Positions 1 through 62,359 of a stretch of DNA of 64,000 nucleotides are shown piece after piece. The notes beneath the pieces are model-generated. The model was not told the DNA's origin and made no database searches. It saw only the letters and a list, made by a program, of their open reading frames with translations. The stretch comes from Dysidea avara. Lineage: Eukaryota > Porifera > Demospongiae > Dictyoceratida > Dysideidae. Numbering within the stretch: position 1 is the first letter of the stretch; the number at the start of each line of letters is the position of its first letter. The position numbers and the translations under genes were made by a program. The stretch is from the NCBI RefSeq assembly GCF_963678975.1, contig NC_089275.1, positions 12,617,682 to 12,681,681 of the forward strand, written 5' to 3'.

Positions 1-77
1 CCCTTCATAATATTTAGGTAATACAGTAATTTTAGTATGTATGTCTAATCTTTAGTAATCAGCTGTCTAATGGATAC

Positions 78-491
78 TAATGTATAGTAAAAGCTTTAAT
101 GAGTTGTGCAGTAATGACATAGACTGATGATAGGAACCAGAAACTGTCATTGACTGCTATCATCCCAACATGATCCTCTGAGGAGTTATTACATGCATGT
201 GCATCAAAATAACAGAATAGATGAATGTACCTGTTTGTCTTAGCTGCTCTAGTGTCATGATGGTCCATAATATCATCAGCTATTGTGTTTGCCACTTGTA
301 CCCGTGTATGTAAAAATAGTAACAAGGTCGGAACAGACTACATAATATGTACGTAGGTAGTCTAGAATATAGAGACTTACAATTTCAATGCACCATCCTA
401 GGGTGAAGGCAAGACATTTCTGTTTAGATGACAATGTCCGGTATCCATACAATTGTGATAGTGTGCTAAGCACCATAAGACCCCTGGTCAT
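78..491 (-). pseudogene. FPPS-like gene, N-terminal half (three exons, inverted)
   Basis: Three minus-strand blocks match farnesyl diphosphate synthase in order. Block 381-491 reads MTRGLMVLSTL...LGWCIEI and ends in a GTAAGT donor. Block 231-301 reads VQVANTIADDIMDHHDTRAA, with the first Asp-rich motif DDIMD that binds Mg-diphosphate, and has donor AG|GTACAT. Block 78-177 contains HVGMIAVNDSFWFLSSVY, like the family's GVGLDAINDSF stretch. WCIEI+VQVANTIADDIMD aligns without gaps to WCVELLQAFFLVADDIMD, from my memory of the family. Oddities: the base pair before block 2 is GG, not AG; the usual TRRG after DDxxD is TRAA; reading phases between blocks 2 and 3 do not join cleanly. I infer a decayed prenyltransferase. 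The remaining exons lie on the plus strand from 798, so this half appears inverted. Upstream (first) exons were not found. Confidence 0.66.
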
Positions 492-797
492 CTCCCTCGC
501 TATACAACATTACCAACATTATTACCACACAGTAGAGGGTGAGGTAATAAGAGGTGGAGAATTTCCCAGGGCTTATGTACAATTGGTATTAGTAACAAAT
601 CAGGCAGAAAACAATATTTGCCATTAATTTCATTGTGATGTTTCCTTCAGTTTCTGCACATACCATTGTACATACATGTAACAACAACTGAATTAGTTGG
701 TTGTCCTACTTAATACAGAGTTTTAGGAACCATCCTTATTATACTGAACTAGTGGAACTGTTCCATCTGGTTACCTAATTGCTACAAACTGTTACAG

Positions 798-3669
798 GTT
801 GTGGAGTATTCTGAAATTGGTAGAATAGTGAGTGCCCTCATCTCTGACAGTAAAACTGATCTGAGCAACTTTACAGCAGAAAAGTGAGATATAAGTTTTC
901 TGAACAGCTTCATTTAATGTATTGACTGGGTGTTTCTGCTTTTACCTGCCAGTGATGGCACTTGGTATGTACTAACTGTAGGTAGTGACACTTGTCTGAT
1001 GTAGTTATTGCATGTAGGCTGGTATTGATGGGATGGCACCTTGTATGCATACAGAAAATAGCACATAATGGGTGTGGCTCATGAAAGAAGCTGGGTTGCT
1101 GCACAGCTATACTATACACTTCCACATCATCATCAACTAATTTCACACATAGGTATTACTTCTATTGGACCTGAATGACTTGGACAAAATGTTACCGGTT
1201 AATTCGACCCAGTTATAACGCTGGTGTACTAGTGACTAAGAAAGTCACAAATGCAAGTAGATTAGAGAATTTGGAGCAAGGCTGAATGGGAGGTACACTG
1301 TTTGTACCACTATTGAAAGCATAATACTCATATTGCATACTGCATACCACATACCTGATTCTGGTAGAATTGATCAATAGCCAGTGCAATATAGACAACA
1401 CTTCATTAACAGCCTTCAATAGATGTACTACAGTTTGTAGGTATGCTGTCTGCAGGCTTGTGTGGAGCCATGCCTATTAATCAATTGTTACTGTACGAGT
1501 TATTGTTTTGCAGCAGCCAGTTTCTTGAAATTCTTTCATGAGCCATGCCCACTTATAGGGAATGTGTGATGCTGTTTGTAGACATATGTGGAGCACACTA
1601 ATTTATTAGTATGGTGTAATGAAGCCACGCCCAAACATATCTTTGCTGTCTGTAAACTTGCATGGATCCATGCTCACTGACTGATTATTTATTATATAAC
1701 TTACCTGTTTATCAACACTGTTGTACAAATCTACATACAAATAATTTTGGAGGGTGTTATGTCACTGATTTATAATCACAATGTAGGATTAGAATACTAG
1801 ATGGCCTAAAGAAAACAACTCTCTTTACATACTGTATATAGTAAGATAGACAAACTAATCTTATGTTTCACAGATGTGGTTGGTCAGTGCTTTGACAAAC
1901 TCAAAAATAAATGTAAATCACATGATCTCTTTGAAAATGGATGCAGACTCCTAAATTTTGTGCAAGCAGTAATAGATGTATGTATATGGCAAACAGGAGG
2001 GAAATGGAGGTCCCTCACTATATTTTAATTGAGATCAAGACATTCTAATAGAGCAGTCATCTATACTCTAATGAAACAGTCAGTTTGTAACTGACATTTG
2101 TATTACTTTTTGACCTGCCGGGTCACTGGTAGAGGCTCCATGAAACATATTGTATGACTTTGTATGGTGTAAAGAACTACTAAACTCAAGATTTGCCAAT
2201 CGTGTAGCCAAGCATCACTTTGTACCAGCTAAGTGCTATGCTGCGTGCATGTGTGTTTGTTTGTGTGTGTCTGTGTGTGTGTTGTGTTAGTGAGTGAGTG
2301 AGTGAGTGAGTGATTGAGTGAGTGAGTGAGTGAGTGAGTGAGTGAGTGAGTGAGTGAGTGAGTGAGTGAGTGAGTGAGTGAGTGAGTGAGTGAGTGAGTG
2401 AGAGAGTGAGTGTGAGTGAGTGAGTGAGTGAGTGAGTGAGTGGAGTGAGTGAGTGGAGTGAGTGGACACGGATATTAATAATTGTCACTGTAACTGGTTG
2501 ACTACAATAGATGTTATGGATCCCTGGGTGTTGCCAGTGTAGACACAAAGGCCTTGCAAGAAGTGTGCCTGGTTGATGATAGTAGAGGCAGTGAGAAGAG
2601 CTGATACTAAACAGAGAGAGGTAACTGCTTTGTATTGTAGTATTATGGAATGTTTTGTTTAGTATTATGTATGTATATAGACTGTTATGTCGTTCATAAA
2701 TAAGTAGCAGCCATTTTTGCTGATTGAATTTTGCTCCATACTTTTGCAACTACTCAAGTATTTAGCAGTGTTGTAGTAGAACTTCTGTATCCTGGACCAG
2801 GACTCTAAATGTATGTGAACCCACACATACAAGCGGGAGACCATGAATATTAATGTACCTATATTCGGAGTGTCCTTTGATGAACCTTGCTGCATTGTTG
2901 GCCACACATCTCTTGAACAGTGATTAGATAGCTGTGCAAACTGTCCTTTACTCTAATAGCTATATGTAGCCTTCCTCAATCATTTATTCATTCTAATTTA
3001 AAATTGTGTTGGTAAAGTTTGCTACAAATTAACCTTCTGCTAGTCACAAGTGGTATTCCAGGTCGTGATAAACTGCTAACTTTCTTCTTGATTGTAACTC
3101 CGGACTTTATACATTAAATCAGTAAAAGCAAGACATATACTTGTGTACTAAACTATTGCACTGTGGTGGTGTGGTCTCAAGCTAAATATAACACTCAGCT
3201 TTGCTTCGTGTTATTGTTAGTCTCTTTACCATGCTCTCGACTATAATTTCATATTGCACTTGCCATGGGGCTTTACAGCACCAAATTTGTACTGGTGTTG
3301 TTGTACCCTATCCTCCTCCTCCAGGCTAACTATGGCAGATCAGATGAAGGTTGTGTAGAGAAGGTGAAGGAGGAGTATGAGTCACTGAACCTGAGACACT
3401 TGTATAGTGAATATGAAGATCAGAGCTACCAGACCATCAGTAAACTAATTGATGAACACAGTCACATATTACCAACACATGTCTTCCTGGAGATGAGGTA
3501 TATCATCTACACAAGGAAACACAAAGATGGATTTTGTATTATTCAACATTTCTTGTATTGTTCTTATTTTTTATTACTAGGCTTTACAGTAAGATATACA
3601 AGTTTAAGTACACTGTTAAAACTAAAGTGTTATGGTAACACCTTAGGTATCATAATGACTACACTGTGA
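798..3669 (+). pseudogene. FPPS-like gene, C-terminal half (four exons)
   Basis: Plus-strand blocks continue the FPPS order. 798-883 (after ACAG, before GTGAGA) reads VVEYSEIGRIVS...DLSNFTAEK, like the family's TEIGQ...DLxxFT. 1874-1977 (after CACAG, before GTATGT) ends LLNFVQAVID, like the segment before the second Asp-rich motif. 2497-2620 reads VDYNRCYGSLGVASVDT, then in another frame KKCAWLMIVEAVRRADTKQR, like DDYLDCYGDP...NKCSWLVVQAL. 3325-3669 reads ANYGRSDEGCVEKVKEEYES and SEYEDQSYQTISKLIDEHSH, the family C-terminus, then runs on past the usual end. The second Asp motif is degraded (VDYNR for DDYLD), block 3 has a frame change, and its acceptor is not AG. The ATG at 3265 lies in the polypyrimidine-rich intron end, so the apparent signal peptide there is not real. 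Family identity is strong at the C-terminus and weaker for 1874-1977. Probably a pseudogene. Confidence 0.68.
2288..2465. repeat. (GAGT)n microsatellite
   Basis: About 175 bp of GAGT repeats with a few interruptions, preceded by GT-rich sequence. It lies in the intron between the second and third plus-strand FPPS-like exons. Open frames through it (THSLTHS repeats) are artefacts. Confidence 0.97.
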
Positions 3670-4815
3670 CTACTACGTACATTTTTATAAAGTATGACTG
3701 TTGTAGAGTGACTGACTATCATTATATTCTATTAGAGTATCAATTTTTTTAATGAAGTAAAAAGGGGCATGCCTCATTTCCCCTGTGTATTATCTATGAC
3801 AAATTTAACACTTTCATTTGCATATAAATTTTATATCTTTAGTTGTATTTTGGATTGGTTGAAATGGAATGGGATTTAAAGTATTTTAATTGCACAGTTT
3901 CTGTCTGTACACGATACACACTTGCTGTGTTCAACATTTCTTGGCACATAGCTATATACCTCATACTTGCAATAATGAATGCACTGTTATCAATACTATT
4001 CTGAGATGATGTTTTAGTGCACATAATGATAATATATCAAATGACTCATATAATGTGGCAAAATGCATATAATCATTAAAGGTTGATCAGAGGACTATAC
4101 TGTACCATGAATATGTGTACCATGAATATGTGTACCATGAATATGCATACTTAATTAAAAATTTATTATAATCCATTTGTGATGCAACTGAAATATCTTG
4201 TTGCTCCTTGTTAACAGCTGTTGTTAACATCCTTGCGACAAGTGACAGGTTCATTAGTTTAGTTGTAGTAAGCCTTGTTCTACAAAATTAAGACACTGTA
4301 TTGACCTCACATCCAGATAGCACCACCTGTCCTTGATTTAGGACCCGTGTTTATTTGAGCCTGTCATACAGCTGTATACAGTGCATAAGTAGATATGTAA
4401 CAAAAATGTGTACATATTTGGTCAAAGATAGCCAATCCATCATGGCAAACTGTCACTGACTAACTATCTGTGATATTACTAGCAAAGTAGCAATGCAGTA
4501 TAAAGTACTGTTTTATAACTAATACATAATACATGTATATATATATGACCACACAATGAGCCACCCAATTTACATACCTACACTATTCTATCCTTTCTTA
4601 TGATCAGCTCATTCAGTTGCCATGCTTGCAGCTGCTACTTCTTTGTCCTTGTCATCTTTGATGGTGATAGTCAGAATGTATATAATAATTGTACTGTTTT
4701 ATTATCATGCGCCTGCAAATACAGTACATACCCCTGTGATACAAACATCTCTAATACATTTTGTACATTGTACAGCTCTGCATTTGTCTTATATGGTGCT
4801 AACATTAGTATATTG
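3663..4815. repeat. Partial third copy of the segmental duplication
   Basis: Sequence from the GACTACTACGTACATTTTTA area to the TACAGCTCTGCATTTGTC area matches 12320-13360 and, in part, 16900-17480 at moderate identity. The shared order includes an ATGAAGTAAA block, a TGTACACGATACACACTTGC block and a CCTTGTTCTACAA block. No lectin-like coding part accompanies this copy. It starts directly at the end of the FPPS-like reading frame. Confidence 0.75.
4101..4145. repeat. 15-bp tandem repeat, three units
   Basis: TGTACCATGAATATG occurs three times in a row without change. Confidence 0.95.
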
Positions 4816-4829
4816 AAATACAACTAATA

Positions 4830-6022
4830 AATTATAAATATTTTAAGTGTGTCCACTTGATCACTCCACCATGAGTTGTTAACATTTTTGAGGTGTGACA
4901 TAATTTTTGTATTAGTTTTACATAGCCATAATTATATCACTACTAGCTATATAGAAATGCAATTTTCTGTTAGATTATTTACTCCAACAGGTAAGTTTAC
5001 ACCATGGACTTAGCTACAATTGTGAATACAAGATATTTAAATAGCTATAATACAAAATGGCAAACTTATAATATATTATTGTTTACTATACACAATAGCA
5101 TACGTATAAGCACACAGTTTCATAAAAAACAACAGTTAACTATATAATATAGAGACACTTGATATCACTTTGTAAGTACATAAGAACTGAATGTGATGAG
5201 CCTTTAAATTGCTAGATGAAAAACTGCTAGAAACTTCATATTAATACACTCTAATTAAACAGCCAGATAACTGTTAAAAATTACACTGTAATTAAGCAAC
5301 AATATATTGTCTTATTGCTGCTTTGTCTCTAATTTCTGCATGTCCAATAGCGACCTTCATAGAATAAGCAAAATTACCAGTTTTAGTGGCCTTATGATAT
5401 GCACATACTGTGTACTTTCACTACACAGTATACGTACTTTGACAAGTGCAGGACCACTACAGAGAGATATATACATGATCACGTTTCCATACATACATAT
5501 GTTGGTAACTCTAAGTATTATTCATTTGTATAAATCTGGACTCTCATTTGGGTTTATATAAATGAAGGCTTGTGATGGTACCACTTTAGTGGAAGGAGTC
5601 ATGCAAAGCAAGACCTATTGTATCTAATGAAATCTGCAGCTTATACAAATAGTAGCTACAAAGAGTAATAGGATTTTCATATATATAGACACTTAAATTC
5701 ACTGTTAGTATTGCTTTATGTATCTGTTTAATACTTAGGCTGATGCTAATAACAAGAAATTCTCTTAATTTTATTGTCCAAAAATCTGGACAATTAACAC
5801 TGCACACTGTTCTTCCTTGCCACATCTAATTCTATAAACTTGGAAGATCGTAACTTAGTGTTCACGTAACATATAAACCTAAAATTTCCTCCATCCATTA
5901 AGCTATGCATGCTGGTACTCACTGCTGACCAAAGTTCTAGTCATTTGCTTTTTCCAATCTGAAGTTATGGATTGTCAAAGTTGGTAAATTGGATTTGTGT
6001 GGAAGACTCCTTTTCACACTTA
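4830..6022. other. No gene seen
   Basis: AT-rich sequence. The short open frames have no splice-site support or family resemblance that I recognise. Confidence 0.5.
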
Positions 6023-6691: not shown

Positions 6692-7445
6692 ATGTTAGCT
6701 GTGACAGGGATACTGTTGTGCCTCTTCCTTACAGTTGATTGCATGGTGAGTAGCCATACATCAGTATATGCTAATGCAGTGTTACTGGTATGTCTGTTCC
6801 ATTTTGTAGGTAATCAAGACTGTTTCTGTGGAGACAAAAAATGCTTTGCTCCCTTTTTATCGAGTGTACACCCCATATTCTCTCCGCTCTAAAGCAGAAT
6901 TCTCTGAGTCATATTCAGTAACCAGGACAGCACTTACCTTCAGTAGTGGAAGTACTTCCTATGGCCGACTCTTTAAGCTACCACTCATACCAGGAAATAT
7001 TTTCCGCAGCACTCTTGCTGACATCACTGTGAAAATAACTGTGGGTTTGGATAATACCATCAGAAATTCAGCTGATAGTGATCCTAAATTCCTACTTAGT
7101 CATGGTCAAGATGGACGGTATGGAATAGGGTTTGAAATGCGAGATGACAGTGTTCGTTGTCAAGGAGTAGAAGGTGTGATGGGATCCTCTTTAGGCTCCA
7201 GAAAAATACATAATGGTGCTAGCCACCTTTCAGAGCCATTACCTGAACAGTTTACGATGATTATTAATCCTTCTGAGCGCTGGGGCTCTTGCTACCATTC
7301 AGTAGATAGTGGAGTAATATCACCAACTTATTTTAACTACTACCCCTACTTAACAAAAGGCTTGTATTTGGAGGTGTACAGGGAAGGTACTAGTGAGCAA
7401 TACAGCTTCAATTACATTATAGTGGAAATTTATGGGAACAGTTAG
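6692..7445 (+). CDS. Secreted protein, unknown family, two exons (229 aa)
   Basis: Exon 1 (6692-6745) encodes MLAVTGILLCLFLTVDCM, a classic signal peptide, and ends ATG|GTGAGT. A 64-bp intron ends TTTTGTAG, and exon 2 (6810-7445) continues in phase 0 to a TAG stop. The mature part of about 210 residues has alternating hydrophobic strands (ITVKITVGLDN, YNYIIVEIYGNS-like end), few cysteines and motifs GRYGIGFEMRD and ERWGSCYHSVDSG; it looks like a beta-rich secreted domain. I have a weak memory of similar uncharacterised sponge proteins but know no named domain. The start is the only ATG giving the signal peptide. An AATAAA follows 18 bp after the stop. It is uninterrupted and spliced cleanly, so this is the best candidate for a working gene in the window. 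Confidence 0.8.

Positions 7446-7783: not shown

Positions 7784-7873
<90 letters not shown>
7784..7873. repeat. (CTG)30 trinucleotide tract
   Basis: Thirty uninterrupted CTG units. It sits about 340 bp past the secreted-protein gene, outside any coding region I can support. The poly-Ala, poly-Cys and poly-Ala frames through it are artefacts. Confidence 0.98.
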
Positions 7874-12227: not shown

Positions 12228-13876
12228 AAGTCTTTTCTGTAGGATCTGAGGGCTAGCTTGCCTCCAAGAATATTAGAAGCTCTGGAATAGTCTATATTGT
12301 TACAAGTCAGTTGAGTGGCTACTTACAATTATATAAAATATGACTGTTTTAGAATGACTGACCAGTGATTATTACTCAATTTTTTTAATGAAGTAAAATT
12401 GGCATACCTCATTTCCTCTGCCTATGATCACCACTACCTTACACATGATAAATTTGATACTTTCCTTTGCATATTAATTTTATATCTTTAGTTGTATTTT
12501 GTATTGAGTGAAATTGGTTGAAATGGAATGGGATTTAAAGTATTTTAATGGCAAAGTTTCTGTCTGTACACGATACACACTTGCTGTGTTCAAAATTTCT
12601 TGGCACATAGCTATATGCCTCATACTTGCAATAATGAATGCACTGTTGTTAATACTATTCTGAGATATGTTTTGTTCCAGTGCACATAATGATATATCAA
12701 ACGACTCATAATATTATAAAGTGGCACATTGTTAATCAGAGGACTACATTGTACCATGTATATGAATTAATCCACTTGTGATAAAACTGAAATATCTTGC
12801 AATTCTTGCTCCTCGTAGCAGCTGTTGTTGACATCCTTCTGACAAGCCACGGGTAAGCCTTGTTCTACAACATTAAGACACTGTAGTCTTCAAGCTTATG
12901 CATGACCTCACATAAATTTTAGGTAGCGCCCCTGTCCTTAATTTAGGGCCCTGCATTTGTTTGAGCCTGGCTATAATATGGCTCTATATGGTGCATGTGT
13001 ATATTAATGTGTACATATATTTGGTCACGATACCAATCCTATTATGACGTACTGTCATTAACTAACTATATCCGTGTATAGCAATGCGGTATTAAGTACT
13101 GTATTATAATACATAGTCAGATGTCCACCAATACAGTATTACCTATTTGCATACTATACCTCCACTGCCCTATACTTCCTCAACTATCATGTTTGCAACA
13201 CCATCCAGCTACTACTGCTTTGTCCCTGTCACTATAGTGCTATATATCATCATTGATGGTCAAAGCCAGAATGTAGCTATTGTAAATATACGTACCTGTG
13301 ATACAGACGTCTTTAATACATTTTGTACCTCGTACAGCCCTAAATTTGTCACTCCTTAATTATAATGGTTAAAGGTTAAAGGTTATAGCTATTATAATAT
13401 TCCCTGTATGTTTTTCACTATACTTACTATAAAATAGCCAACTTTAATTTGATGCAGTTGCATTTTGCCGCTGTTCTAGGGTGACTTGCTAGCAATTATA
13501 AAAGTAAAATTGACTCAGCCCTCAGAGAAGCAGACCCCATATTTTCCTTTAAGAACTCCTCTGCCTGGTGGTAACTAATACTGCCCATCATATCATAGTT
13601 AAATTCATTAATGCATACTACTACTGTAAGGTGATAGATGGGTAGAATTGGAATCCAATTACCGTATATATGCAATGCAGGAATTTAATTCATATTGACT
13701 GAAAATACTGTATGTAAATAAATTAATATAATAACGAAATATAGAATCATTTAATAGTGCATGTCTGAGTGGCTGCAAGGCGAAGCATGGTGGGTGGCTA
13801 TATAGCCACCCCCTTTGTATCAGCCTCTGGTAATCATAATCAATTGAATATTAATAATATTGTAGTACATAGATAC

Positions 13877-14187
13877 CAGGGGCGGATCCAGACTTATGGA
13901 AAGGGGGTCAAAAATGAACTGAGGCACTACATTGTCTCTGGTTTGATAGGGTGAGACAAAAAAAAAAAGGTCACAGCCAGCTGACAATAGCTGCCCACCT
14001 CACCAACCACGCATTTATAGCTAATAAAGTACATAAAAATCCTTAAATAGCTCACTACACACTGTTCTAATACTCTGACTGCTTTATTAGAGTGAATGCT
14101 CTATTAGAGTGTTTCGATCTTGGTATACTAAAAATTTTTGGAGGGGGGGTCAAGAGCCCCCTTTGACCTCCCCTGTATCCGCCCCTG
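13877..14187. mobile_element. hAT MITE with 8-bp target duplication
   Basis: Ends CAGGGGCGGATCCAG and TGTATCCGCCCCTG are the terminal type common in hAT elements. ATAGATAC flanks both sides (13869-13876 and 14188-14195). Copy B of the duplication has no insert at the corresponding place, so the element arrived after the duplication. The interior carries the CTCTAATAGAG motif twice in inverted form. Non-coding. Confidence 0.93.
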
Positions 14188-14399
14188 ATAGATACATTAA
14201 ACTCAAGTGCTGGATCACACAATTAACACTATAATTATATATATATATAGGGACTAGCCTAGCTTCTGAGGTCTACATGGTACATACCTACAGGTTATAT
14301 GATTGTAAGAACTGAAACATACAAGTGTATGTTAAGTACAGGAATAAAATGTTACTGATTACACTAATAAATGTAGTATTTTACTGAATGTAGAGCTCC

Positions 14400-15919
14400 A
14401 GTTGATCAATCAAAGGGGATCCAACAGAAAATACCATTGTCTGCATATTCTGGCTTCTATATCACTTGTAGCTACTTCTCTTGTTCAATTATTGGTTGGG
14501 TCAGGGCCGCCCACAGGGGGGGGGGCAACTGGGGCATTTTTCCCCGGGCCCCAGCCTGAAAGGGGCCCCAGGAAGGGCCCCCTGAATACCTGTTTAAAAT
14601 ATCGATATACTCTAATAGAGCAGTCACAGTATTCTTCAGAGGAGCAGTGTAGCAAGCTTATAGATAAGGAGATATGGTTGGTGATGGGTAGTTATTGTCA
14701 TTGCCAGCAGGTTGTGACCTTTTTTTTTTTTTTTTTTTTTTGGTCTTCACCTTACAACTTGGGTCAAGGGCCCCACTTTAACTCTTTGCCCTGGGCCCCT
14801 TAATTTCTCTGGGCGGCCCTGGGTTGGGTAGCAACAGTTAGTACTACTGTAGCAATTAGATCCATCCCACAAAGTTTCATTAAAGAAATAGGCTGAAGTG
14901 CTATAGGCTTGAGTGTTGATGTTTACTGATTCACAGTAATATTTAGTACCCATAAAGGAGGGTGGGGCTGTTCCTCTACCAGCAGCACATGGACAATTGT
15001 ATGTGTATGTATGATTATCATACAAGCCAACTGCATAAGCCCAGATGTGGTGATAAGACTTCCATAAGTGATTAATAGTCCATCAACATACCAACCATCA
15101 ATTGTTTGGCTTTCGGCATCATGACAGCATGATGTGCATAGAATCCTTCCCCTATTCCCTTCTGATATCCTCTTGCTCTACTACACACCCTCTGGTAACT
15201 TGTTCCATTAGTGAAGAAGTTGGCAGACGTGCAAGTATGAATGTTGTCACTGACCACACAACAGAAGAATTACTGGCTTGATACCATCCACTGGGACAGT
15301 CATCCCCTGCACTGATATCAACATTGATTATTCTTCTCCATCCTCCACCCACACCAGCACATGTTGTGATAAAGCCAGCAGCAATTGCAGTTTCTGTCAT
15401 GTTGCAATATTTCCATTGTGTGTCATTAATACAATAGTATCCTGACTTGTCGAGAGTTTCATGATTATTGTTGAAGAAGTTCAAACAAGATACTCCAGTA
15501 TAAGTCATCCCACAGAAAACTTTGCTTGGTCCATCAATAATCCTGATCTTGACCTCTCATGGCTTTCAGGGTTGTTGTTGTAAATACGTTCACAAGACTC
15601 ACCAGGGTAGAATGGAGCTTTAAACCAATACACAATACATTGATCAGTAGCCATCACCAGTTCCTTAGTGAGTATCACTATTATAATGTAATAAACTACT
15701 GACATTAGTATCAATAAGTGCAGTAGTGAGTGCAGAAGTGAGCAAAAATTGTTTATACTCTGTGTACCACATCTCCCATACTAAAGCTGTCACGTTTGCA
15801 GTGCACTTTTTGGCTTCTTGTACTGCTTGCATGCATGGAGTGTTTAAAGATACGTATTCATAAAGACTATGAAGCAGGCACATGCATACCAGAACCGCAG
15901 CAAGACAAAGTATATTCAT
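14400..15919 (-). pseudogene. Cysteine-rich secreted lectin-like gene, copy A (decayed)
   Basis: Starts at 15919 with MNILCLAAVLVCMCLLHSLY, a signal peptide, then ACT-type short Cys blocks (GESCERIYNNNPESH, FCGMTYTGVSC). The main domain follows: GGWRRIINVDISAGDDCPSG, GTSYQRVCSRARGYQKG, HHIWTYAVGLYDN-type, YNCPCAAG, FMGTKYYCESVNIN, ETLWDGSNC, and finally ATSDIEARICRQW near 14440. This matches an unnamed secreted domain (GWRR...HIWTYA...NYYCES...WDG...CC...DIEARIC) that I recall as expanded in sponges and cnidarians; extracellular binding is likely but unproven. Relative to copy B it has a small deletion near 15550, a 13-bp-type loss near 15275, an 11-bp insertion near 15115, a one-base loss near 15060, and a hAT MITE (14502-14821) in the last block. 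It cannot encode the full protein. Confidence 0.72.
14502..14821. mobile_element. hAT MITE inside lectin-like pseudogene A
   Basis: Ends CAGGGCCGCCCACAGGG and CTCTGGGCGGCCCTG; GGTTGGGT on both sides (14494-14501 and 14822-14829). Contains a CTCTAATAGAG motif at about 14610 and a T-run of over 20 at 14718-14741. Absent from copy B. Confidence 0.93.
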
Positions 15920-16334
15920 TAAGTCTCAGTATTTGTGTGAGAAAGTGCTTGATAACACTATCAAACTGAACTATTGTCCATCAAATGAAATGCTGGCTGA
16001 TATGACTATCAAAGGACAAGTGGTTGGATTTTTTCAAACCCTTCTAGGAATTTGCTCTATTTCACTTTAATTAAAGGTTTTGCTTAGGTTCTTTGGCCTG
16101 TGATAAACACCTTGTGCAAGCTCTGTCTCCAGTGCCTAACTGGTAAAGATAAAAACAAAAGAAGTTGACATGTCTAAAAAATAACTGGAATGTCTGCTCA
16201 TGGGTGAGAAGGAGTTATCACTCTGGTCAGACAATTAAATTTTTGGGTGTAATTTTACTAATTTAAGGTGTACTATATTTAGTAGGTCTGTACATTGAAA
16301 GGGTAAAGGTATACACTACTCGAAACATTAAAAT

Positions 16335-16715: not shown

Positions 16716-16841
16716 TAGCTTCTGATTTTGGTGAAAAGATTGAGATACTCTAATAATGCAGTCAGGCAATATGAACTACTCTAATATGTCATATAGCTAT
16801 AGTGGAAACCCTTTTCAAAATTCCTGCGTACGCTCCTGAGC

Positions 16842-19768
16842 TTGCCTCCAAGAATATCAGAAGCTCTGGAATTGTTACAAGTCAATTGAGTGGCTACTTA
16901 CAATTTTATAAAACATGACTGTTTTCGAATGACTGCTCAGTTATTATTAGAGTATCTCAATTTTTTAATGAAGCTAGTAAAATTGGCACACCTCATTTCC
17001 TCTGCCTATGATCTCCACTACCTTACACATGATAAATTTGATACTTTCCTTTGCATATTAATTTTATATCTTGTAGTTGTATTTTGGATTGGGTGAAATT
17101 GTTTGAAATGGAATGGGATTTGTAAGTATTTTAATGTCACAGTTTCTCTCTGTACACGATGCACACTTGCTGTGTTCAAAATTTCTTGGTACATAGCTAT
17201 ATGCCTCATACTCAGGGATGTAGCCAAGGGTGGGCATGGGCGGGCATTTGCCCAAACATTACAGTTTCTTGCCCAACCATCACAAACTTTTGCCCAACCA
17301 TCACAAGTAGTTTAAGATTCACGCAAGGATTTACAGCAGCACCCTGCTTTAATATTGTAAAGTATAAACGTGTATCTCAAATAAATGTACCTGTGATACA
17401 GACAATAAATATATGTACCTGTGATACAGACATCTTTAATACATTTTGTACATTGTACAGCCCTAAATTTGTCACTCCTTATAATGGTTAAAGGTTATAA
17501 CTATTATAATATTCTCTGTATGTTTTTCACTATACTTACTATTAAAATAGCCAACTTTCATTTGATGCAGTCGCATTTTGCCACAGTTCTAGGGTGACTT
17601 GCTAGCAATTATAAAAGCAAAATTGACTCAGACGTCAGAGAAGCAGACCCCATATTTTCCTTTAAGAATTCCTCTGCCTGGTGGTAGCTATTACTGCCCA
17701 CTATATCGTAGCTAAATTCACTAATGCATACTGCTACTGTAACGTGATAGATGGAATCCAATTGGCATATGAAATGCAGGAATTTAATTAATTCATATTG
17801 ACTGAAAATATGCAAATAAATTAACATAATAATGAAATATAGAATCATTTAATAGCGCATGTCTGAGTGGCTGCAAGGCGAAGCATGGTGGGTGGCTATA
17901 TAGCCACCCCCTTTGTATCAGCCTCTGATAATCATAATCAATTGAATATTAATAATATTGTAGTACGTACATACATTAAACTCAAGTGCTGGATCAAAGA
18001 ATTAACACTATATATAGGGACTAGTCTATCTTCTGAGATCTACATGGTATATACCTACAGGTTATATGATGGTAAGAACTGAAACATACAATTGTATGTT
18101 AAGTACAGGAATAAAATGTTACTGATTATATACACTAATTAATGTACCATAGTAATTTGCCAAATGTATAGGGCTCCAATTGATCAATCAAAGGGCATCC
18201 AGCAGAAAAATACCATTGTCTGCATATTCTGGCTTCTATATCACTTGTAGCTACTTTCCTTGCTCAAATGTTGGTAGAACCACAGTTGGGTAGCAACAGT
18301 TAGTACTACTGTAGCAATCAGATCTGTCCCACAAAGTGTCATTAAAGAAATAGGTTGAAGTGCTAGGTTTGAGTGTTGATGTTTACTGATTCACAGTAAT
18401 AGTTAGTACCCACAAAAGAGGGTGGGGCTGTTCCTCCACCAGCAACACATGGACAATTGTATGTGTATGTTTGATTATCATACAAGCCAACTGCATAAGT
18501 CCAGATGTGGTGACGAGGACTGCTATAAGTGATTAATAGTCCATCAGCATACCAGCCATTAATTGTTTGACCTTCAGTATGATGTGCATAGAATCCTTCT
18601 CCCATTCCCTATTGATATCCTCTTGCTCTACAGGTGATAACTTGTTCCATTAGTGGAGAAGTGGGCAGAAGTGCAAGTATGAATGTCGTCACTGACCACA
18701 AGACAGAAACTAACACCAGAATAACTGGCTTGACGCCATCCACTGGGAAATTCATTCCCTGCACTGACTTCAATGTTGATTATTCTTCTCCATCCTCCAC
18801 TCACACCAGTACATGTTGTGATAAAGCCAGCAGTAATTGCAGTTTCTGTCATATTGCAATATCTCCATTGTGTGTCATTAATATGATAGTATTCTGAGAG
18901 TTTCAGGATTATTGTTGAAGATGTTCAAACAGGATGATCCAGTATAACTTAAGTCATCCCACAGAAAAGTTTGCTGGGTCCATCAGTAATCCAGTAATAT
19001 TCTGACCTCTCATGGCTTTCAGGGTTGTTGTTGTAAATATGTTCACAAGACTCACCAGGGTATACGTAGAATGGAGCTTTAAACCGATACACGCTACACT
19101 GATCAGTGGCTAATATCAGTTCCTTAGTGAGTATCACTGTTATAATGTAATATATAAACTACTGACATCATTTACTAATACTAGGCCGGTATCAATGGGT
19201 GCAGTATCGACTGCTAGAAGTGAGCAAAAACTTTGTTTATACTGTGTCTACCACATCTCCCACATAAAAGCTGTCACATGTGCAGTGCACTTTTTGGCTT
19301 CTTGTATGGCTTTACTGGAGTGCTTAAAGATATTCATAATGACAATCAAGCAGGCATGTGCATAGCAGAATCACCACAGTACCACAGCAAGACCAAGCAC
19401 ATTGTTTGTGACACAGTGCTCGATAACACTATCAAACTGAACTATTACCCATCTAATGAGATGCTGAGTGATATGATGACTATAAAGGACTAGTGGGTGG
19501 ATTTTTCAAACTCTTCTAGGCTTTAGTTAAAGGTTTTTGCTTTGCTCATGGTAAACACCTCATACAGGCTCAGCTTCCAGTCTTCATCATCCAGTGCCTA
19601 ACTGGTAAAATTGACATGTCTAAGAAAATGACTGGAATGTTTGCCCATGAGTGAGAAGGAGTGTATAGAGAAATGCAATCTGGTCAGACAATTAACTTTA
19701 ACATTTGGGTGCATAGACTGTGTAATTTAAGGTTTAAAAGACTATCATGAGCTTTAGTAGGTCTAGAA
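16842..19768. repeat. Segmental duplication, copy B
   Basis: Starts GAGCTTGCCTCCAAGAATAT and ends near TTTAGTAGGTCTAG, collinear with 12251-16285. It lacks both hAT insertions of A. About 640 bp of A (roughly 12620-13290) is missing; in its place 17212-17340 begins CAGGGATGTAGCCAAGG, the broken end of another hAT-like element. Confidence 0.88.
18190..19390 (-). pseudogene. Cysteine-rich secreted lectin-like gene, copy B (decayed)
   Basis: Shows the same domain order as copy A: GESCEHIYNNNPESHERSEY, YWITDGPSKLFCGMT, TAGFITTCTGVSGGWRRI, SGVSFCLVVSDDIHTCTSAH, INGWYADGLLITYSSPRHHI, WTYAVGLYDNQ, FVGTNYYCESVNIN, and TSDIEARICRQW near 18220. Frames that are broken in A (near 15550 and 15115) are intact here, but B lost about 8 bp of the GTSYQRVC segment near 18632, has an in-frame TAG a few codons later, and its N-terminal signal exon (around 19380) no longer reads through. 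The last block is out of frame with WFY-type sequence in both copies, so that change may predate the duplication. Function of the intact family is unknown; secreted and disulfide-rich. Confidence 0.72.
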
Positions 19769-19769
19769 A

Positions 19770-22330
19770 ATTCTACCTGTAGTGCTACATAAACAGATAT
19801 GTGCTTGTACTGGTGTAGTGACTCAAATTATTGTCATTTTTTTGCATTGGATTAATGTTTGAGCCATCTGCTAGCACTAGTTCTACACAATAAGTACTGC
19901 TCTATGTTAACACATATTGTCCATGATATTCTTTATCTAAATGTGCATGAGTTACTGTGTACCATGTATTACTACTGTGCGTTATATGTTACACCATACA
20001 GTACAATAGTGCTGTAATGGAAGTTACATGTGCACTTTTTTTGCAAAAAAAATTGTTGATAATTAAAAACTAACTTCACAACCTTTACGGCTGACACCTT
20101 GGTAGTATATTTGATAGGTATAATCTCAAGCCCAAAGTGTCTTCAGTGCTACTCAAAATGCTCTATGTAGGTTGCTACTAAATTGTATTATTTAGTGGAA
20201 TTTCTACCGACTAACTACTGAATACTTCAGACAAACATAACTCATAACGGCTAAGGCTACAAGCTTGATTTTTTCACTATTAGATGTCACTCACTTTTGG
20301 CATACCATAGTACTTACAATGAATGTATCACGGAATTACTCCTTTGTGTATCCTTTTCACTAAGAGCACAAGTTGTCAATTCACTGTAGCACATAAAGGT
20401 TTCCTTGTGCTGCAGCTGACTATCATGTGAATACACATTTCCATCATAATTGCTAACTGAATTCATTGCAGGGGCATTTCTTGCAGGGGCGGATCCAAGG
20501 GGTTTCACTGAGAAACTAGTCAAGTATATTTAGGCAATGAAAACTTTCCATTGATTTGCAAAATTATCAAAGACTTAGACCAAAATACTCTAATAGAACA
20601 GTCATATTTCATGTTTCTCAAAAACACTTGTAGTTTACCTATACCTCAAAATCTGCAATTCCTCCCCCCCTCAGAATGGAATACACGCATGTCCTTCAAA
20701 TTGCCCCACCTCAATCTCTACTCTCTGGCCTGCTCCTGATACTGAACCACCAAAAGCAAGCTATAAATTTAAAATGTCAGCCTAAAGATTTTTTGGTGAA
20801 AACTGTTACCAGATTCAATCTCAGAATACAAAATTTCTTTGGGGAGCATGCCCCAGGTTTAAGTGTGCATACAACACATTTCTCACTAAAAGTCCTGAAG
20901 CCACCCTTGTCCTGTACTGCTATATCACTGAGTCATTGTGTAACAGGCTGAACATACATAGCTGAAAACAAAGCGTAATGACCACTTCACTTTTCAGTAG
21001 CTAGTAATGATAGTTGGGATGAGTCATTGTTTACGCACAAAATATGTCTGTCAACTTTTGATGTGGTATGTGTGAGATTACCGGATATACCAGTAACTAC
21101 AAAATGTTGAAATTACAGTAGGAATTTTAAGTTTGAATAGGGATCATATAAGATATTATAGAAATAAAAAGCAATGAAAAAGGGAGGTGCCTATATACAC
21201 CTGCAAATATACTAGTGGACATTTATCATCCTGAGGATTAAATGTCTACTATACAGATAAAGTTTCAGTCAAAACTGTCTCCAAATTCAATCACAGAATG
21301 CTATTTTTTTCAAAATTTCTCAGGAATCATGCTGGCTTCCAGACCACCCTCTATAGAATGCTCATGCTTTGCATTTTACAGAGTGTGCACACTGTGCAGA
21401 CACTTAAGCTTCTACCATATGCTAGCAAAATCCTAGATCTTCACTCCCCTGTGTGTTTGTACATTCATACTACTTATTTCCGTTATCTCAATACCTGTGT
21501 GCCAGTTAAATTGCAAGAAATGTCGATATAAATAAAGCATATAAGAGTGAACAATTCATAAAGGCTAATTTCAACTACTCTAGTTCCAATAGAACATTTG
21601 ATTCTACTGTTCAGATAGTTATTGCATTATTATCCCTCTATACATAGGTACCAGGTTATAGTGATATACAAGACAGTTTATTACTTCTTCTTTCTGCCAG
21701 TCAGAGCTGTTATGTACATAATTAGGTCTACGTATAATTATTATGTAATAAATAATTTTACAAGAAGTCCTGATATTTGGTATTGCATATTATTCTGACG
21801 TGTTGTGTCAGTGTTTTGAGACTAGTAGTAACTGTACATTATATTTGTACACATGTAACTTATGCATGTATGTTGTGAGATTACAACTTGCATTGCACAT
21901 ACTAGCACCCTAATGGAAGATCCATATTATAGTTATTAAACTAGACACTAGAGTAAGTTTCAAAAGTGCCTCTAGTGCAGTTGGTCTGTTGTAACTGTTT
22001 CAGTAGAACAGTACCGATTTAATGTCCCAGTACAGTCCGTCGGAATACAGCAATGAGAGCAGGTACCAAGATTTTTGTTAAAGCCTTTACTACATACAAG
22101 GATGCAGTATAGCAAACCCGATATTCTTAATAATGTGAATGGGTTACTTGACCAACTTGTGTTTGGATAAATGCACTTAATTCTGAAATAATGTGTGCAT
22201 GGAATGGATGAAAGAACAACTACATACAATTTACTGTAATAATCTTCAAATTAGACCAAATATTTGATAAATGGAATACTGGATAACTGGTGAATGGGAT
22301 AAGGTCCCACTGTGTCATCAGGAGCTTGTA
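19770..22330. other. No gene seen; repeat fragments
   Basis: Contains a likely hAT left end CAGGGGCGGATCCAAGG near 20482 without a visible partner, a CTCTAATAGAACAGTCA motif near 20587, and two copies of the GCATG(C)CCCC core (about 20815 and 21265). No supported exons. Confidence 0.5.
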
Positions 22331-22518
22331 CAGTTGGACCTCCATTATCCCAACACATGTGTGCCAATTTAGCCTCAAACGCACAACTGTTGTGATAAAT
22401 AAAGCCCATTCATTTAATACACATAGTTCTGTTACATAGTTATTAGAACATTTACCAAAATATACAACAGTTGATATTATACTCTAATAGAATGGTCACT
22501 TATGCTGAGGTCCTACTG
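22331..22518. mobile_element. Mariner/pogo-like MITE, TA duplication
   Basis: Left end CAGTTGGACCTCCATTATCC and right end GAGGTCCTACTG are inverted, with TA on both sides. 188 bp, non-coding; carries a CTCTAATAGAATGGTCA motif near its right end. Confidence 0.8.
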
Positions 22519-22632
22519 TAGGTTTGTTGAATGGTTGACAAATTTGGAAAAATGTTTACAACAATACTGGTAGCTACATAAATTAAAAAGACATACTAGC
22601 TGTTCACTCACTTCCAGAAGAGAAGCTTGTAA

Positions 22633-22719
22633 TTACCAACAACTACACTTGTTGTCTTCAGTGTCTGTCCCAACCTTCCCCATCACATTCGGATCACCAT
22701 AACAATGCAAAAAGTCATC
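22633..22719 (-). pseudogene. Orphan FPPS exon around the second Asp-rich motif
   Basis: After a pyrimidine-poor TTCTTAG acceptor the minus strand reads DDFLHCYGDPNVMGKVGTDT then EDNKCSCW and a stop. This is the conserved FPPS segment DDYLDxYGDPxVxGKxGTDIxDNKCSWLV. Only this exon is present; nothing on either side within about 2 kb resembles other FPPS exons. The last Asp of DDxxD is His, and one extra base after KCS shifts WLV-type sequence out of frame. It is distinct from the degraded equivalent at 2497-2620 and closer to the family consensus, so it comes from a second FPPS copy. Confidence 0.8.
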
Positions 22720-22979
22720 CTAAGAAGAAATCAGCATGATTATATGTATGTGTCCACACATATATGCAGCATACTCACACACAACTGTCACACATACTAC
22801 ACAACTTGTGCATTACTCACTCACTAAATGTACAGCCCCCTATAAGTGTAGGTAAATTCTCCTGGGGATAGTCACTTCTTTAATAGGACCACCTTGTTAT
22901 AGTGGTGACCTCTAGAAAGTACACACCAGAGCATATGTAACCTTTCCAACAAGACCATCTTAATAAATTATTGAGTGCA

Positions 22980-37493: not shown

Positions 37494-37814
37494 ATCTAAT
37501 CCAAAACAGCCAAGCTGTAAAAAAAGTGTGCGGCCCTCAGAAAGGCTATGGTGAAAAAAGATGTGAAATCCAAGGTGGCGGCCAAGAAATGGCTGTGATG
37601 GTAGGTTAATGGTAAAAATTTTAATAATGACAATTCAGGTAAATTTTGTGAAGCAGCACAAAAATTCACCTGAATTGTCGTTATTAAAATTTTTACCATT
37701 AACCTACCATCACAGCCATTTCTTGGCCGCCACCTTGGATTTCACATCTTTTTTCACCATAGCCTTTCTGAGGGCCGCACACTTTTTTTACAGCTTGGCT
37801 GTTTTGGATTAGAT
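37494..37814. mobile_element. 320-bp near-perfect palindromic element
   Basis: Arms of about 145 bp are almost identical inverted copies, from ATCTAATCCAAAACAGCCAA inward to TGACAATTCAGGT, around a loop near 37640-37665. Both strands therefore carry nearly the same open frame. An older, split relative is at 10950-11370. The arm identity implies recent origin or ongoing correction. Confidence 0.92.
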
Positions 37815-37980: not shown

Positions 37981-38083
37981 GATCGGATTTGCGAAAAGGG
38001 GTCTTCCACACACATCCAATTTGCCAACTTTGACAATTGATAACTTCAGATTGGAAAGAGCTATTGCCTTGAAATTTGGACAG
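37981..38083. mobile_element. Left boundary sequence of the satellite block
   Basis: After TAT, the sequence GTGATCGGATTTGCGAAAAG resembles the ends of the MITEs at 27495 and 50667. No matching right end is seen. It may be the left terminus of a larger element that carries the satellite. Confidence 0.4.
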
Positions 38084-41000
38084 TGGTGATTTCTTTGCAG
38101 CTGAACTCTCTACATGATAGTTTCTTTGTAGCTGAACTCTCTACAAGGTAATTTCTTCTAGCTGATCTCTCTACAGGGAGATTTTTTGTAGCTGAACTAT
38201 CTACAAGGTAACTTCTTCTAGCTGATCTCTCTACAGGGTGATTTGTTTGTAGCTGAATTCTTTACAGGTGATTTGTTTGCAGCTGAGCTCTTTACAGAAT
38301 GGTTTCTTTGTAGCTGAACTCTCTACAAAGTAACTTCTTCTAACTGATCTTTCTACAGGGTGATTTGTTTGTAGCTGAACTATCTACAAAGTAACTTCTT
38401 CTAGCTGATCTCTCTACAGGGAGATTTGTTTGTAGCTGAACTCTCTACAGGTGATTTGTATGTAGCTGAATTCTGTACAGGTGATTTGTTTGTAGCTGAA
38501 TTCTGTACAGGTGGTTTCTTTGTAGCTGAACTCTCTAAAAGGTAACTTCTTCTAACTGATCTTTCTACAGGGCAATTTGTTTCTGGCAGAATTTTCTACA
38601 GGGTGATTTCTTTGCAGCTGAACTCTCTACATGATGGTTTCTTTGTAGCTGAACACTCTACAAGGTAAGTTCTTCTAACTGATCTCTCTACAGGGTGATT
38701 TGTTTGTAGCTGAACTATCTACCAGGTAACTTCTTCTAGCTGATCTCTCTACAGGATGATTTGTTCGTAGCTGAATTCTGTACAGGTGATTTGTTTGCAG
38801 CTGAGCTCTTTACAGAATGGTTTCTTTGTAGCTGAACTCTCTACAAGGTAACTTTTCTAGCTGATGTCTCTACAAGGTAGCTAGTTTGTAGCTGAACTCT
38901 CTACATGGTGGTTTCTTTGTAACAGAACTTTCTACAAGGTGACTTCTTCTAGCTGATCTTTCAATAGGGTGATTTGTTTGTAGCTTCACTCTCTACAAGG
39001 TAACTTCTTCTAGCTGATCTCTCTACAGGGAGATTTGTTTGTAACTTAACTTTCTAAATGATGGTTTCTTTGTAGCTGAACACTCTACAAGTTAACTTCT
39101 TCTAGCTGATCTCTCTGCAGGGTGATGTGTTTGTAGCTGAATTCTGTACAGGTGATTTGTTTGCAGCTGAGCTCTTTACAGAATGGTTTCTTTGTAGCTG
39201 AACTCTCTACAAGGTAACTTCTTCTAACTGATCTTTCTACGGGGCAATTTGTTTCTGGCAGAATTTTCTACAGGGTGATTTCTTTGCAGCTGAACTCTCT
39301 ACATGGTGTTTTCTTTGTAGCTGAACTCTCTACAAGGTAACTTCTTCTAGCTGATCTCTCTACAGGGTGACTTGTTCGTAGCTGAACGATCTACAAGGTA
39401 ACTTCTTCTAGCTGATCTCTCTACAGGGAGATTTGTTTGTAGCTGAACTCTCTACAGGTGATTTGTTTGAAGCTGAACTCTCTAAATGATGGTTTCTTTG
39501 TAGCTGAACTCTCTACAAGTTAACTTCTTCTAGCTGATCTCTCTACATGGTGATTTGTTTGTAGCTGAACTATCTACAAGGTAACTTCTTCTAACTGATC
39601 TTTATACAGGGCAATTTGTTCGTGGCAGAATTTTATACAGGGTGATTTCTTTGCAGCTGAACTCTCTACATGGTGGTTTCTTTGTTGCTGAACTCTCTAC
39701 AAGGTAACTTCTTCTAGCTGATCTCTCTACAGGGTGATTTGTTTGTAGCTGAACGATCTACAAGGTAACTTCTTCTAGCTGATCTCTCTACAGGGAGATT
39801 TTTTTGTAGCTGAACTCTCTACAGGTGATTTGTTTGAAGCTGAACTCTCTAAATGATGGTTTCTTTGTAGCTGAACTCTCTACAAGTTAACTTCTTCTAG
39901 CTGATCTCTCTACATGGTGATTTGTTTGTAGCTGAATTCTGTATAGGTGATTTGTTTGCAGCTGAGCTCTTTAAATAATGGTTTCTTTGTAGCTGAACTC
40001 TCTCAAGGTAACTTCTTCTAGCTGATGTCTTTACAGGGTCACTAGTTTGTAGCTGAATTCTCTACATGGTGGTTTCTTTGTAACTGAACTCTCTACAAGG
40101 TAACTTTTTCTAGCTCATCTTTCTACATGGTGATTTATTTGTAGCTGAATTCTGTACAGGTGGTTTGTTTGCAGCTGAGCTCTTTAAAGAATGGTTTCTT
40201 TGTAGCTGAACTCTCTACAAGGTAACTTCTTCTAGCTGATGTCTCTACAATGTCACTAGTTTGTAGTTGAGCTCTCTACATGGTGTTTTTTTTGTAACTG
40301 AACTCTCTACAAGGTGACCTCTTCTAGCTGATCTTTCTACAGGGTGATTTGTTTGAAGCTGAACTCTCTACAAGGTAACTTCTTCTAGCTGATCTCTCTA
40401 CAGGTAGATTTGTTTGTAGCTGAACTCTCTACATGATGGTTTCTTTGTAGTTGAACTCTCTCAAGGTAACTTCTTCTAGCTGATGTCTTTACAGGGTCAC
40501 TAGTTTGTAGCTGAATTCTCTACATGGTGGTTTCTTTGTAACTGAACTCTCTACAAGGTAACTTTTTCTAGCTCATCTTTCTACATGGTGATTTATTTGT
40601 AGCTGAATTCTGTACAGGTGGTTTGTTTGCAGCTGAGCTCTTTAAAGAATGGTTTCTTTGTAGCTGAACTCTCTACAAGGTAACTTCTTCTAGCTGATGT
40701 CTCTACAATGTCACTAGTTTGTAGTTGAGCTCTCTACATGGTGGTTTTTTTGCAACTGAACTCTCTACAAGGTGACCTCTTCTAGCTGATCTTTCTACAG
40801 GGTGATTTGTTTGAAGCTGAACTCTCTACAAGGTAACTTCTTCTAGCTGATCTCTCTACAGGTAGATTTGTTTGTAGCTGAACTCTCTACATGATGGTTT
40901 CTTTGTACGTAGTTGAACTCTCTCAAGGTAACTTCTTCTAGCTGATGTCTTTACAGGGTCACTAGTTTGTAGCTGAATTCTCTACATGGTGGTTTCTTTG

Positions 41001-42440
41001 TAACTGAACTCTCTACAAGATAACTTTTTCTAGCTCATCTTTCTACAGGGTGATTTATTTGTAGCTGAATTCTGTACAGGTGGTTTGTTTGCAGCTGAGC
41101 TCTTTAAAGAATGGTTTCTTTGTAGCTGAACTCTCTACAAGGTAACTTCTTCTAGCTGATGTCTCTACAAGGTCACTAGTTTGTAGCTGAGCTCTCTACA
41201 TGGTGGTTTTTTTGTAACTGAACTCTCTACAAGGTGACCTCTTCTAGCTGATCTTTCTACAGGGTGATTTGTTTGAAGCTGAACTCTCTACAAGGTAACT
41301 TCTTCTAGCTGATCTCTCTACAGGGAGATTTGTTTGTAGCTGAATTCTCTATAAGGTGATTTGTTTGTAGTTGATCTCTCTGCAGGTTGATTTGTTTTAG
41401 CTGAACTCTCTACAGGCTGATTTGTTTGCAGCCGATCTCTCTACAGGATAATTTGTTTGTAGCTGAACTCTCTAAAAGTTGATTTGTGTGTAGCTGACCT
41501 CTCTTCAGGGTGATTTGTTTCTAGCTGATCTCTCTACAGGGTGATTTTTTGTAGCTGACCTCTCTTCAGGGTGATTTGTTTCTAGCTGATTGCTCTACAG
41601 GTTGATTTGTTTGTAGATGAACTCTCTACAGGGTAATTTGCTTGTAGCTGAACTCCTTACTTTGTGTCTAGTTTGTAGCTGATCTCTCTACAGGGTGATT
41701 TGTTTGTAGCTGAACTCCTTACATTGTGTGTAGTTTCTAGCTGATCTCTCTACACAGTGATTTGTTTGTAGCTGATCTCTCTACAAGTTGATTTGTGTGT
41801 ATATAGATGATCTCTCTGCAGGTTGATTTGTTTGTAGCCGATCTCTCTACAGGTAATCTGTTTGTAGCTGAACTCTCTATAAGGTGATTTGTTTGTGGCT
41901 GATCTCTCTGCAGGTTGATTTGTTTTAGCTGAACTCTCTACAGGGTGATTGCTTGTAGCTGAACTCCTTACATTGTGTCTAGTTTCTAGCTGATGTCTCT
42001 ACAGGGTGATTTTTTTGTAGCTGAACTCTCTTCAGGGTGATTTGTTTCTAGCTGATCTCTCTACAGGTAGATTTGTGTTGATTTGTTCATTGCTGATCGC
42101 TCTAAAGGTAATTGATTTGTTGCAGTTGAACACCCTGCAAAGTGTTTTGTTTGTAGCTGATCACTCTAAAGGGTAATTTGTTTGTAGCTGAACTCTCTCC
42201 ACAGTGACTTGTGTGTAGCAGAATTCTGTGTAACTGAATTCTCTAGAGAGTGACTTAATTGTAGCTGAATTCTCTACACAGTGCATGACTTGTTTATAGC
42301 TGAACTTTCTTCAGTATGACTTGTAATGTTCTGAATCTCTATAGTGGTATATTTGCTTAACTCTCCACATGGTGACTGTCTTCTTGCTGAACTGTCTATA
42401 AGATTAACTGTTTGCAGCTGAACTCCCTACAGAATAACTT
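38084..42440. repeat. Satellite array, monomer about 31 bp
   Basis: About 140 tandem copies of a unit like TTTGTAGCTGAACTCTCTAC plus AGGGTGATTTG, alternating in places with TTCTAGCTGATCTCTCTACA plus AGGTAACTTC. Monomers differ by several bases but the AGCTGA(A/T)CTCTCTAC core is constant. The array becomes more degenerate from about 42100. No frame is open through it and no gene is inside. Confidence 0.97.
40001..41380. repeat. Higher-order repeat of about 460 bp, three copies
   Basis: The rare variant TCTCAAGGTAACTTCTTCTA recurs at 40001, 40459 and 40921, spacings of 458 and 462 bp. Between these marks the order of monomer variants (GTCACTAG, CTCATCTTTC, AGGTGGTTTG, GGTGACCTC, GTTTGAAGC) is the same in all three. 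Each block holds about 15 monomers, and blocks resemble each other more than adjacent monomers do. Confidence 0.93.
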
Positions 42441-58478: not shown

Positions 58479-59513
58479 GTTCTGAGTCTTCTAAAACAGT
58501 TTCTGTCATCCATCCCTATAAATGCTGTACCACCCATGCTTGAAAGCGTTTGTGATTAGTTGAGTCAAACCCTCTCAATGTATAAACTTTGCCTCGGTAA
58601 AAATTTTTTCCTAGCTACGCCACTGCACATATATAGTTACTATTCTTCCAGTTCCAGAAAAAATTGTCATATTGTACTTATGGCAGTCATCCATCTATAC
58701 TGACAAGCAAATAGTTGTATGATTAGTGGAGATAGTGAGTCCGAAGCGAGGCAAGATTGTTCCAAACTCTGCACCAAAACTGACTTACCTTTGTACACTG
58801 AGACAGTGAAAGACATCATTATGTTTAACATGCAGAAGTTAGGGTTGGGTTAGGGTGGCATGATTGGTGTTCAGCTTTGGTTTCTGCTTTTGGCCATGTG
58901 TAGGTTCTTTCATACTTTATTATCAAACGCTAAGGGCAAATTTTTTTTTTGGACGCACTTCTGACTTAGAAAATTTTTCATGTTTTGTGAACTTACCGTT
59001 TTTCTTTGTTTTACGGATCATTTGCGGATAAGGAAAAGGTCACACTGAAACTATTAGCCCCTGTGTATTGAGTGTGTTGGTCGTCTTCAAAGACGTTGTG
59101 AACAAAGGACGAGACCTACCTGAATGGACATTTCTTCCCTGCCGTCCGCCTGTCATCTCACAACACTGGCGTGACTCGACTCGATGGCTGAAAACTTCCG
59201 AGTGAAGGCCAAGGTGAAGGCATGAAAGGATAGAAGGACACTTGTAAGAAGGTGTCACAAGTAATAAAGACAGTTGGGAACTGAAAGTGTAGTATGTGAC
59301 TATAATATCCTTGTTTGCTGTATACACTGTGACTACCTATAGCTATCTTGTACTTGAATTAAATGTCATGTTATGTATCCAGGTTGTGACCACAGTAGTT
59401 TGTTTGTTGTGTGTAAAGTTAACATCATTTTCATTATGCTATGTACCGTAGCATTGTGTGATTGAATAAAGTTTGCAACTGCCGGGGTATGAAAAGGCTA
59501 GCACTCGCTTTAA

Positions 59514-62160: not shown

Positions 62161-62359
62161 TAGCTAAAGTATAATTATATACTTCATGCATAATACAAGT
62201 ACCATTTTTATGTAGTTAAACACCACCACACCTTTAATTGTGGCCAAATTTGAGCAGTGTCATAATAAAAAAAACATTGTTTTATACTGAGCAGTGGTCA
62301 AGTTTGAATAGTTGTTGCATCAATTTTGTGAACAGGTGTAATAAATGCTAACATAAGTA

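Follow-up and report, generated by a model that had tools for sequence, protein, structure and literature searches.

Two sub-kilobase inversions in a degenerate FPPS-like duplicate of the sponge Dysidea avara

Background

Among described systems, the closest to the inversions reported here are the microinversions analyzed by Potapova et al. (2022; PMC8755829). In the parts of that report drawn on here, 59 definite human-chimpanzee microinversions span 17-33 nt, microinversions are edged by short inverted repeats (3-10 nt in nine chimpanzee-bonobo cases), and microhomology-mediated break-induced replication (MMBIR) is proposed for them. For the gene family, our points of reference are animal farnesyl pyrophosphate synthase (FPPS) and expanded families of prenyl diphosphate synthases, such as the GGPPS of termites (PMC13143122). 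Our literature search found no paper joining intragenic inversion, pseudogene and within-gene breakpoint, and none that names both farnesyl pyrophosphate synthase and demosponges.

It is rare for an intragenic inversion to be mapped to the base with its unflipped form close by. In the locus described in this report, breakpoints, microhomology and added lesions are readable, because sister copies within 110 kb show the unflipped state directly.

Results

FPPS-like pieces on both strands

The window, by which we mean the whole 64-kb stretch of DNA that was analyzed, is contig positions 12617682-12681681, numbered here as 1-64,000. Typed chick, human and yeast FPPS sequences were used as tblastn queries against it. 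With chick FPPS, the minus strand carries RGLMVL...LGWCIEI (485-363) and ADDIMD...VNDSF (283-119), with a joint E value of 2.8e-6. The plus strand carries RNHPYYTELVELF (725-763), SEIGR...FTAEK (792-884) and FYLP (925-960) at a joint E value of 0.020, then KCAWL (2561-2623; E 0.20) and the FPPS C-terminus (3316-3519; E 1.8e-13). Solved FPPS structures are matched by the C-terminal frame (E 2.4e-11); the WCIE frame alone had no significant match in the PDB (best E 0.37).

On a three-sequence FPPS profile, the C-terminal, WCIE, RNHPYY and ADDIMD/VNDSF frames scored 48.2, 18.0, 13.7 and 13.4 bits, and the top score among 10 dinucleotide shuffles was 7.2 bits. On the same profile KKCAWL, FYLP and SEIGR (7.1, 4.8 and 4.3 bits) did not exceed this shuffle maximum, and we accept these weak frames because nucleotide alignment to the sister copies supports them. 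PF00348 had no match in five window pieces or in six frames of 1-5000, Pfam searches of 10 window frames returned three weak matches that were all under their cut-offs, and comparison of the C-terminal frame with viral contigs gave nine pattern matches and no relative.

The first Asp-rich motif (DDxxD) is kept as IADDIMD within the minus-strand match at 283-119, and the second is not kept, reading VDYNR at 2497. Among the chick-FPPS matches listed for the window plus 200 kb to its left, there is no N-terminal exon for the window copy or for the sister copy s1. With this exon not found, and with frame lesions and cut exons, the window copy shows no complete FPPS reading frame. Its features are as follows (window coordinates).

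116-119, plus strand: left breakpoint overlap of inversion 1, GACA
116-175, minus strand: split exon, first part, DHVGMIAVNDSFWFLSSVYV (tblastn and sister alignment)
116-705: inversion 1, 590 bp, inverted relative to two sister copies (blastn, collinear flanks)
230-301, minus strand: ADDIMD exon, with GG in place of the acceptor AG and 11 nt missing relative to s1 (tblastn and sister alignment)
381-497, minus strand: exon REMTRGL...LGWCIEI, followed by donor gtaagt (tblastn and sister alignment)
702-705, plus strand: right breakpoint overlap of inversion 1, TGTC (reverse complement of GACA)
702-769, plus strand: split exon, second part, VLLNTEF-RNHPYYTELVELFHL, with one inserted T (sister alignment)
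798-884, plus strand: exon VVEYSEIGR...FTAEK (tblastn and sister comparison)
925-972, plus strand: FYLP exon, degenerate (tblastn; sister alignment 771-1033)
1018-1033, plus strand: GID exon, first bases (sister comparison)
1034-1417: inversion 2, 384 bp, inverted relative to five sister places (blastn and sister comparison)
1355-1417, minus strand: GID exon, remainder, flipped (sister comparison)
2497-2620, plus strand: second-Asp exon, VDYNRCYG...KKCAWL, frame broken (sister comparison)
3316-3519, plus strand: C-terminal exon (structure match and tblastn)

Inversion 1

Inversion 1 is real, and its ends are bounded to four bases. The unflipped state is seen in s1 (12510407-12511308) and s2 (12577791-12578709). 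By blastn, window positions -111 to 119 are collinear with s1 12510407-12510642, window 116-705 matches s1 12511235-12510639 in inverted orientation (78.8%), and window 702-779 is collinear with s1 12511232-12511308. The same pattern is found with s2, in which 12577791-12578019 is collinear, 12578636-12578016 inverted (78.3%) and 12578633-12578709 collinear. The breakpoints, 116-119 and 702-705, are each placed within 4 bases and have the edges GACA and TGTC; no inverted pair of at least 14 nt links them. When 116-705 is turned around, the alignment to the sisters continues across both joins. The turned exon reads SSVYV and then LLNTEF in frame across the join, with one inserted T following, and both sisters read SSVYVLLNAEF. 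The flipped state is derived: two sister places within the 264 kb formed by the window and the 200 kb to its left are unflipped, and turning the segment restores the coding order.

These alignments bear out the proposal, made in an initial annotation of this DNA, of an inversion through a broken FPPS copy. The breakpoint that it expected between 492 and 797 is found at 702-705, and the other breakpoint (116-119) also lies in the window. The annotation had placed FPPS segments on the minus strand at 491-78; the strand is right and the end is not. In the sisters, the collinear counterpart of 1-119 lies upstream of the WCIE exon, so that minus-strand coding ends at 116. Its plus-strand half, given as 798-3669, is mostly on that strand, except that the split exon resumes at 702-706 and the larger part of the GID exon (1417-1355) is read from the minus strand. 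FPPS alignment to the left of the window, for which 20 kb had been suggested and 200 kb were covered, yielded complete collinear sisters and no missing exons of half genes.

Inversion 2

Window 1034-1417 is inverted relative to s1 12511832-12512238, and its flanks (771-1033 and 1446-1733) are collinear. It is also inverted relative to three further sister places and to a fifth, at 12486240-12486611. One breakpoint falls inside the GID exon, which corresponds to the s1 exon AGIDGKTVNDEVLSISLAIGEFYQNQ, and splits it into first bases on the plus strand (1018-1033) and a remainder on the minus strand (1417-1355). Because it is cut in this way, the exon had been seen neither in the initial annotation nor by protein search. 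The right join lacks about 11 bases. No clear microhomology was found at these breakpoints; the 4-bp inverted microhomology is seen at inversion 1 only. Here, too, the flipped state is derived, since five sister places in the 264 kb are unflipped and turning the segment restores the coding order. The sequence at 706-1033 is collinear with the sisters, and the two inversions are thus 328 bp apart.

Two other readings of this part of the window were set aside. The interval 770-797 was considered as a genuine tiny intron and dropped: s1 has an intron of about 218 bp at that place, which is nearly gone in the window copy (between 769 and 798). The piece at 1873-1974 (VVGQCFDKLKN...) was considered as the GEYFQIQ exon and rejected: in blastp its matches to the three typed FPPS sequences were only two residues long, and the true exon has its two parts at 1018-1033 and 1417-1355.

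Survey of inverted pieces and a second remnant

Inverted pieces were surveyed with 2107 blastn pairs (E values up to 1e-8) from the same 264 kb. A strict two-sided test, with flanks within 120 bp, left five rows: two for inversion 1 (with s1 and s2), two for inversion 2 (with s1 and s4) and one 119-bp case. A looser survey gave 27 rows inverted beside collinear pieces, of which eight represent three FPPS events and three are self-palindromes, and 11 rows of the converse arrangement.

The third FPPS event concerns a further FPPS remnant, located at 21.6-22.7 kb. The initial annotation had stated that no FPPS segment is present twice, but two segments are doubled in the window by this remnant.

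21637-21723, plus strand: RYQ...FFLP exon (tblastn)
22642-22719, minus strand: DDFLHCYGDP exon (tblastn)
22029-22965: segment inverted relative to sister 12606757-12607727 (collinear left flank only)

The flipped segment takes in the DDFLHCYGDP exon and is 83.4% identical to its sister. Its left flank, 21474-21907, is collinear with 12606037-12606538; for the right flank, the sister comparison found no homologous sequence. This inversion is less certain than inversions 1 and 2.

Decay of the window copy and state of its sisters

Several lesions are private to the window copy. The acceptor of the ADDIMD exon has changed from AG to GG, and that exon has lost 11 nt; the split exon has gained 1 nt, the GID exon has lost 3 and gained 4, and the second-Asp exon has lost 12 and gained 7. 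Private codon changes number 20 non-synonymous and 13 synonymous in the window copy (2 and 5 in s1). For the C-terminal exon, its dN/dS is 0.34 when compared with s1 and 0.82 with s3, both ratios resting on few differences. Identity to the sisters is 0.83 and 0.82 inside the inversions and 0.85-0.89 outside them. After being turned around, the window copy groups with the sisters in a tree and has the longest branch among them (0.067, compared with 0.017, 0.033, 0.023 and 0.039 for s1 to s4), with low node support within the sister group (0.000-0.641).

The sisters are themselves damaged in part. In s2, the WCIE exon has gained 4 nt. One nucleotide is missing from the second-Asp exon in both s3 and s4, and the C-terminal exon of s4 retains 148 of 195 nt. 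Given this damage in s2 to s4, and an N-terminal exon that was not found for s1, the sister group may already have been dead, or altered, by the time the inversions occurred. The VDYNR sequence had been read initially as a sign of decay, but the motif occurs in three sister places (IDYNR at 12513414, VDYNR at 12544671 and 12584634). Since it is common to the sister copies, it marks the sister group and not the decay of the window copy itself.

The surrounding cluster

A PF00348 search of the assembly (550.8 Mb in 108 contigs) gave 10 matches, eight of them on the window's contig between 12396835 and 12499969. We recognize an FPPS-like cluster at 12396835-12640400 in which the second Asp motif is variously DDYLD, DDFID, I/VDYNR or DDFFH/DDFLH. 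Minus-strand copies of the DDFID type lie at 12.418-12.432 and 12.496-12.504 Mb, and a third copy of this type at 12.396-12.404 Mb. On the plus strand, 12439132-12448064 has a copy in which the two motifs are both DDxxD. Copies and fragments of the I/VDYNR type occupy 12.51-12.59 Mb, and a remnant with DDFFH is found at 12.606-12.608 Mb. Between s1 and the copy c421, the dN/dS of the C-terminal exon is 0.18, which indicates that the lineage was under constraint at some time. The cluster may merit separate study for its group of copies with an altered second Asp motif.

Other features of the window

The window has no tRNA genes and no Rfam match at the gathering threshold. A 211-residue open frame at 6810-7442 had no Pfam match up to an E value of 1, and 7784-7873 consists of 30 perfect copies of CTG. 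Positions 12255-16272 and 16839-19736 are collinear duplicated stretches, 79-89% identical in the longer pieces, that carry similar NDTQW-YCNMTETAI-AGFITTC frames. A palindrome at 37494-37814 (96.9%) adjoins an array of 31-bp units that extends over 4.1 kb (38080-42227), and related palindrome-plus-array pieces lie near 12613192-12614394 and, inverted, near 12550698-12555612; we take the repeat near 37.8 kb to be reminiscent of sponge repeats. A pair of inverted 368-bp arms (98.4% identical), separated by about 4 kb, bounds 58936-63634 and possibly represents the ends of a recent mobile element.

Discussion

We conclude, with very high confidence, that the locus is a degenerate FPPS-like duplicate hit by two sub-kilobase inversions. 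Window 1-3.6 kb is a decayed duplicate from a local multi-copy cluster. In it, the segment 116-705, edged by GACA and TGTC, was flipped in place, which split an exon between a Val and a Leu codon, and 1034-1417 was flipped too, cutting the GID exon. The most likely cause would be repair of a break or stalled fork via short inverted microhomology, by MMBIR, template switching or end joining. The MMBIR model of Potapova et al. would extend to these events by inference, because the events here are larger, and two breaks rejoined by end joining across a 4-bp overlap would explain them equally. The locus probably makes no FPPS.

Exons on opposite strands of a raw window need not represent two genes. 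The initial annotation had offered, as an alternative, two separate truncated FPPS copies placed head to head, one extending left of the window, and the region does contain many FPPS copies and pieces of copies that point either way. This arrangement is highly improbable: no continuation of the minus-strand half adjoins the window in the 200 kb to the left, and window -111 to 119 is instead collinear with the s1 intron upstream of the WCIE exon. It is also contradicted by the joins, both of which share the identical two sister coordinates to 4 bases in two sisters, and by the exon that turning the segment restores. We consider it very unlikely that the flips are assembly errors, even though paralogous copies can confuse assemblers and an assembly flip would likewise leave identity inside the inversions near that outside. 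The flipped segments measure 590 and about 384 bp, and an assembly of 550.8 Mb in 108 contigs suggests long reads, which would span them. No inverted pair of at least 14 nt connects the two breakpoints of the first inversion, the second lacks about 11 bases at one join, and the copy carries other private lesions. There is next to no chance that a living gene joins exons from both strands by trans-splicing. Several exon pieces are still open and the donor gtaagt is retained after WCIEI, but two exons are cut internally, frames are broken and one acceptor is lost.

The number of events is a separate matter. Both inversions and the loss of the intron at 769-798 might stem from a single complex repair in which the template was switched several times, given that the two flips are 328 bp apart and both absent from the sister places seen, and that little is left between them of the s1 intron of about 218 bp. 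We regard this as rather unlikely, because nothing dates the lesions relative to each other, and separate events in an unconstrained copy would fit too. A broader proposal, in which one multi-switch event, together with 22029-22965, marks a stretch of the genome unusually prone to sub-kilobase inversions, we hold to be unlikely. Whether made at once or separately, the two inversions in this degenerate duplicate are a known, ordinary kind of mutation in a decaying copy, with unusually good internal controls, and the locus is a clear record of the decay of a duplicated gene.

Comparison with known systems

The window copy resembles animal FPPS (polyprenyl_synt, PF00348) in its exon-level similarity over most of the protein and in keeping ADDIMD. 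It differs in having VDYNR as the second motif, a broken frame and an N-terminal exon that was not found. As judged from the parts of the termite GGPPS report considered here (PMC13143122), the two systems would have in common that a gene for a prenyl diphosphate synthase has multiplied locally, and they differ in that the family described here is FPPS-like and the window copy is broken. Compared with the microinversions in the portions of PMC8755829 cited above, the inversions are alike in that a short segment is reverse-complemented in place, and inversion 1, with GACA and TGTC, may also share the short inverted repeats at the edges. Unlike those microinversions, they are as long as 590 and about 384 bp, and each interrupts a coding exon in a duplicate that has decayed.
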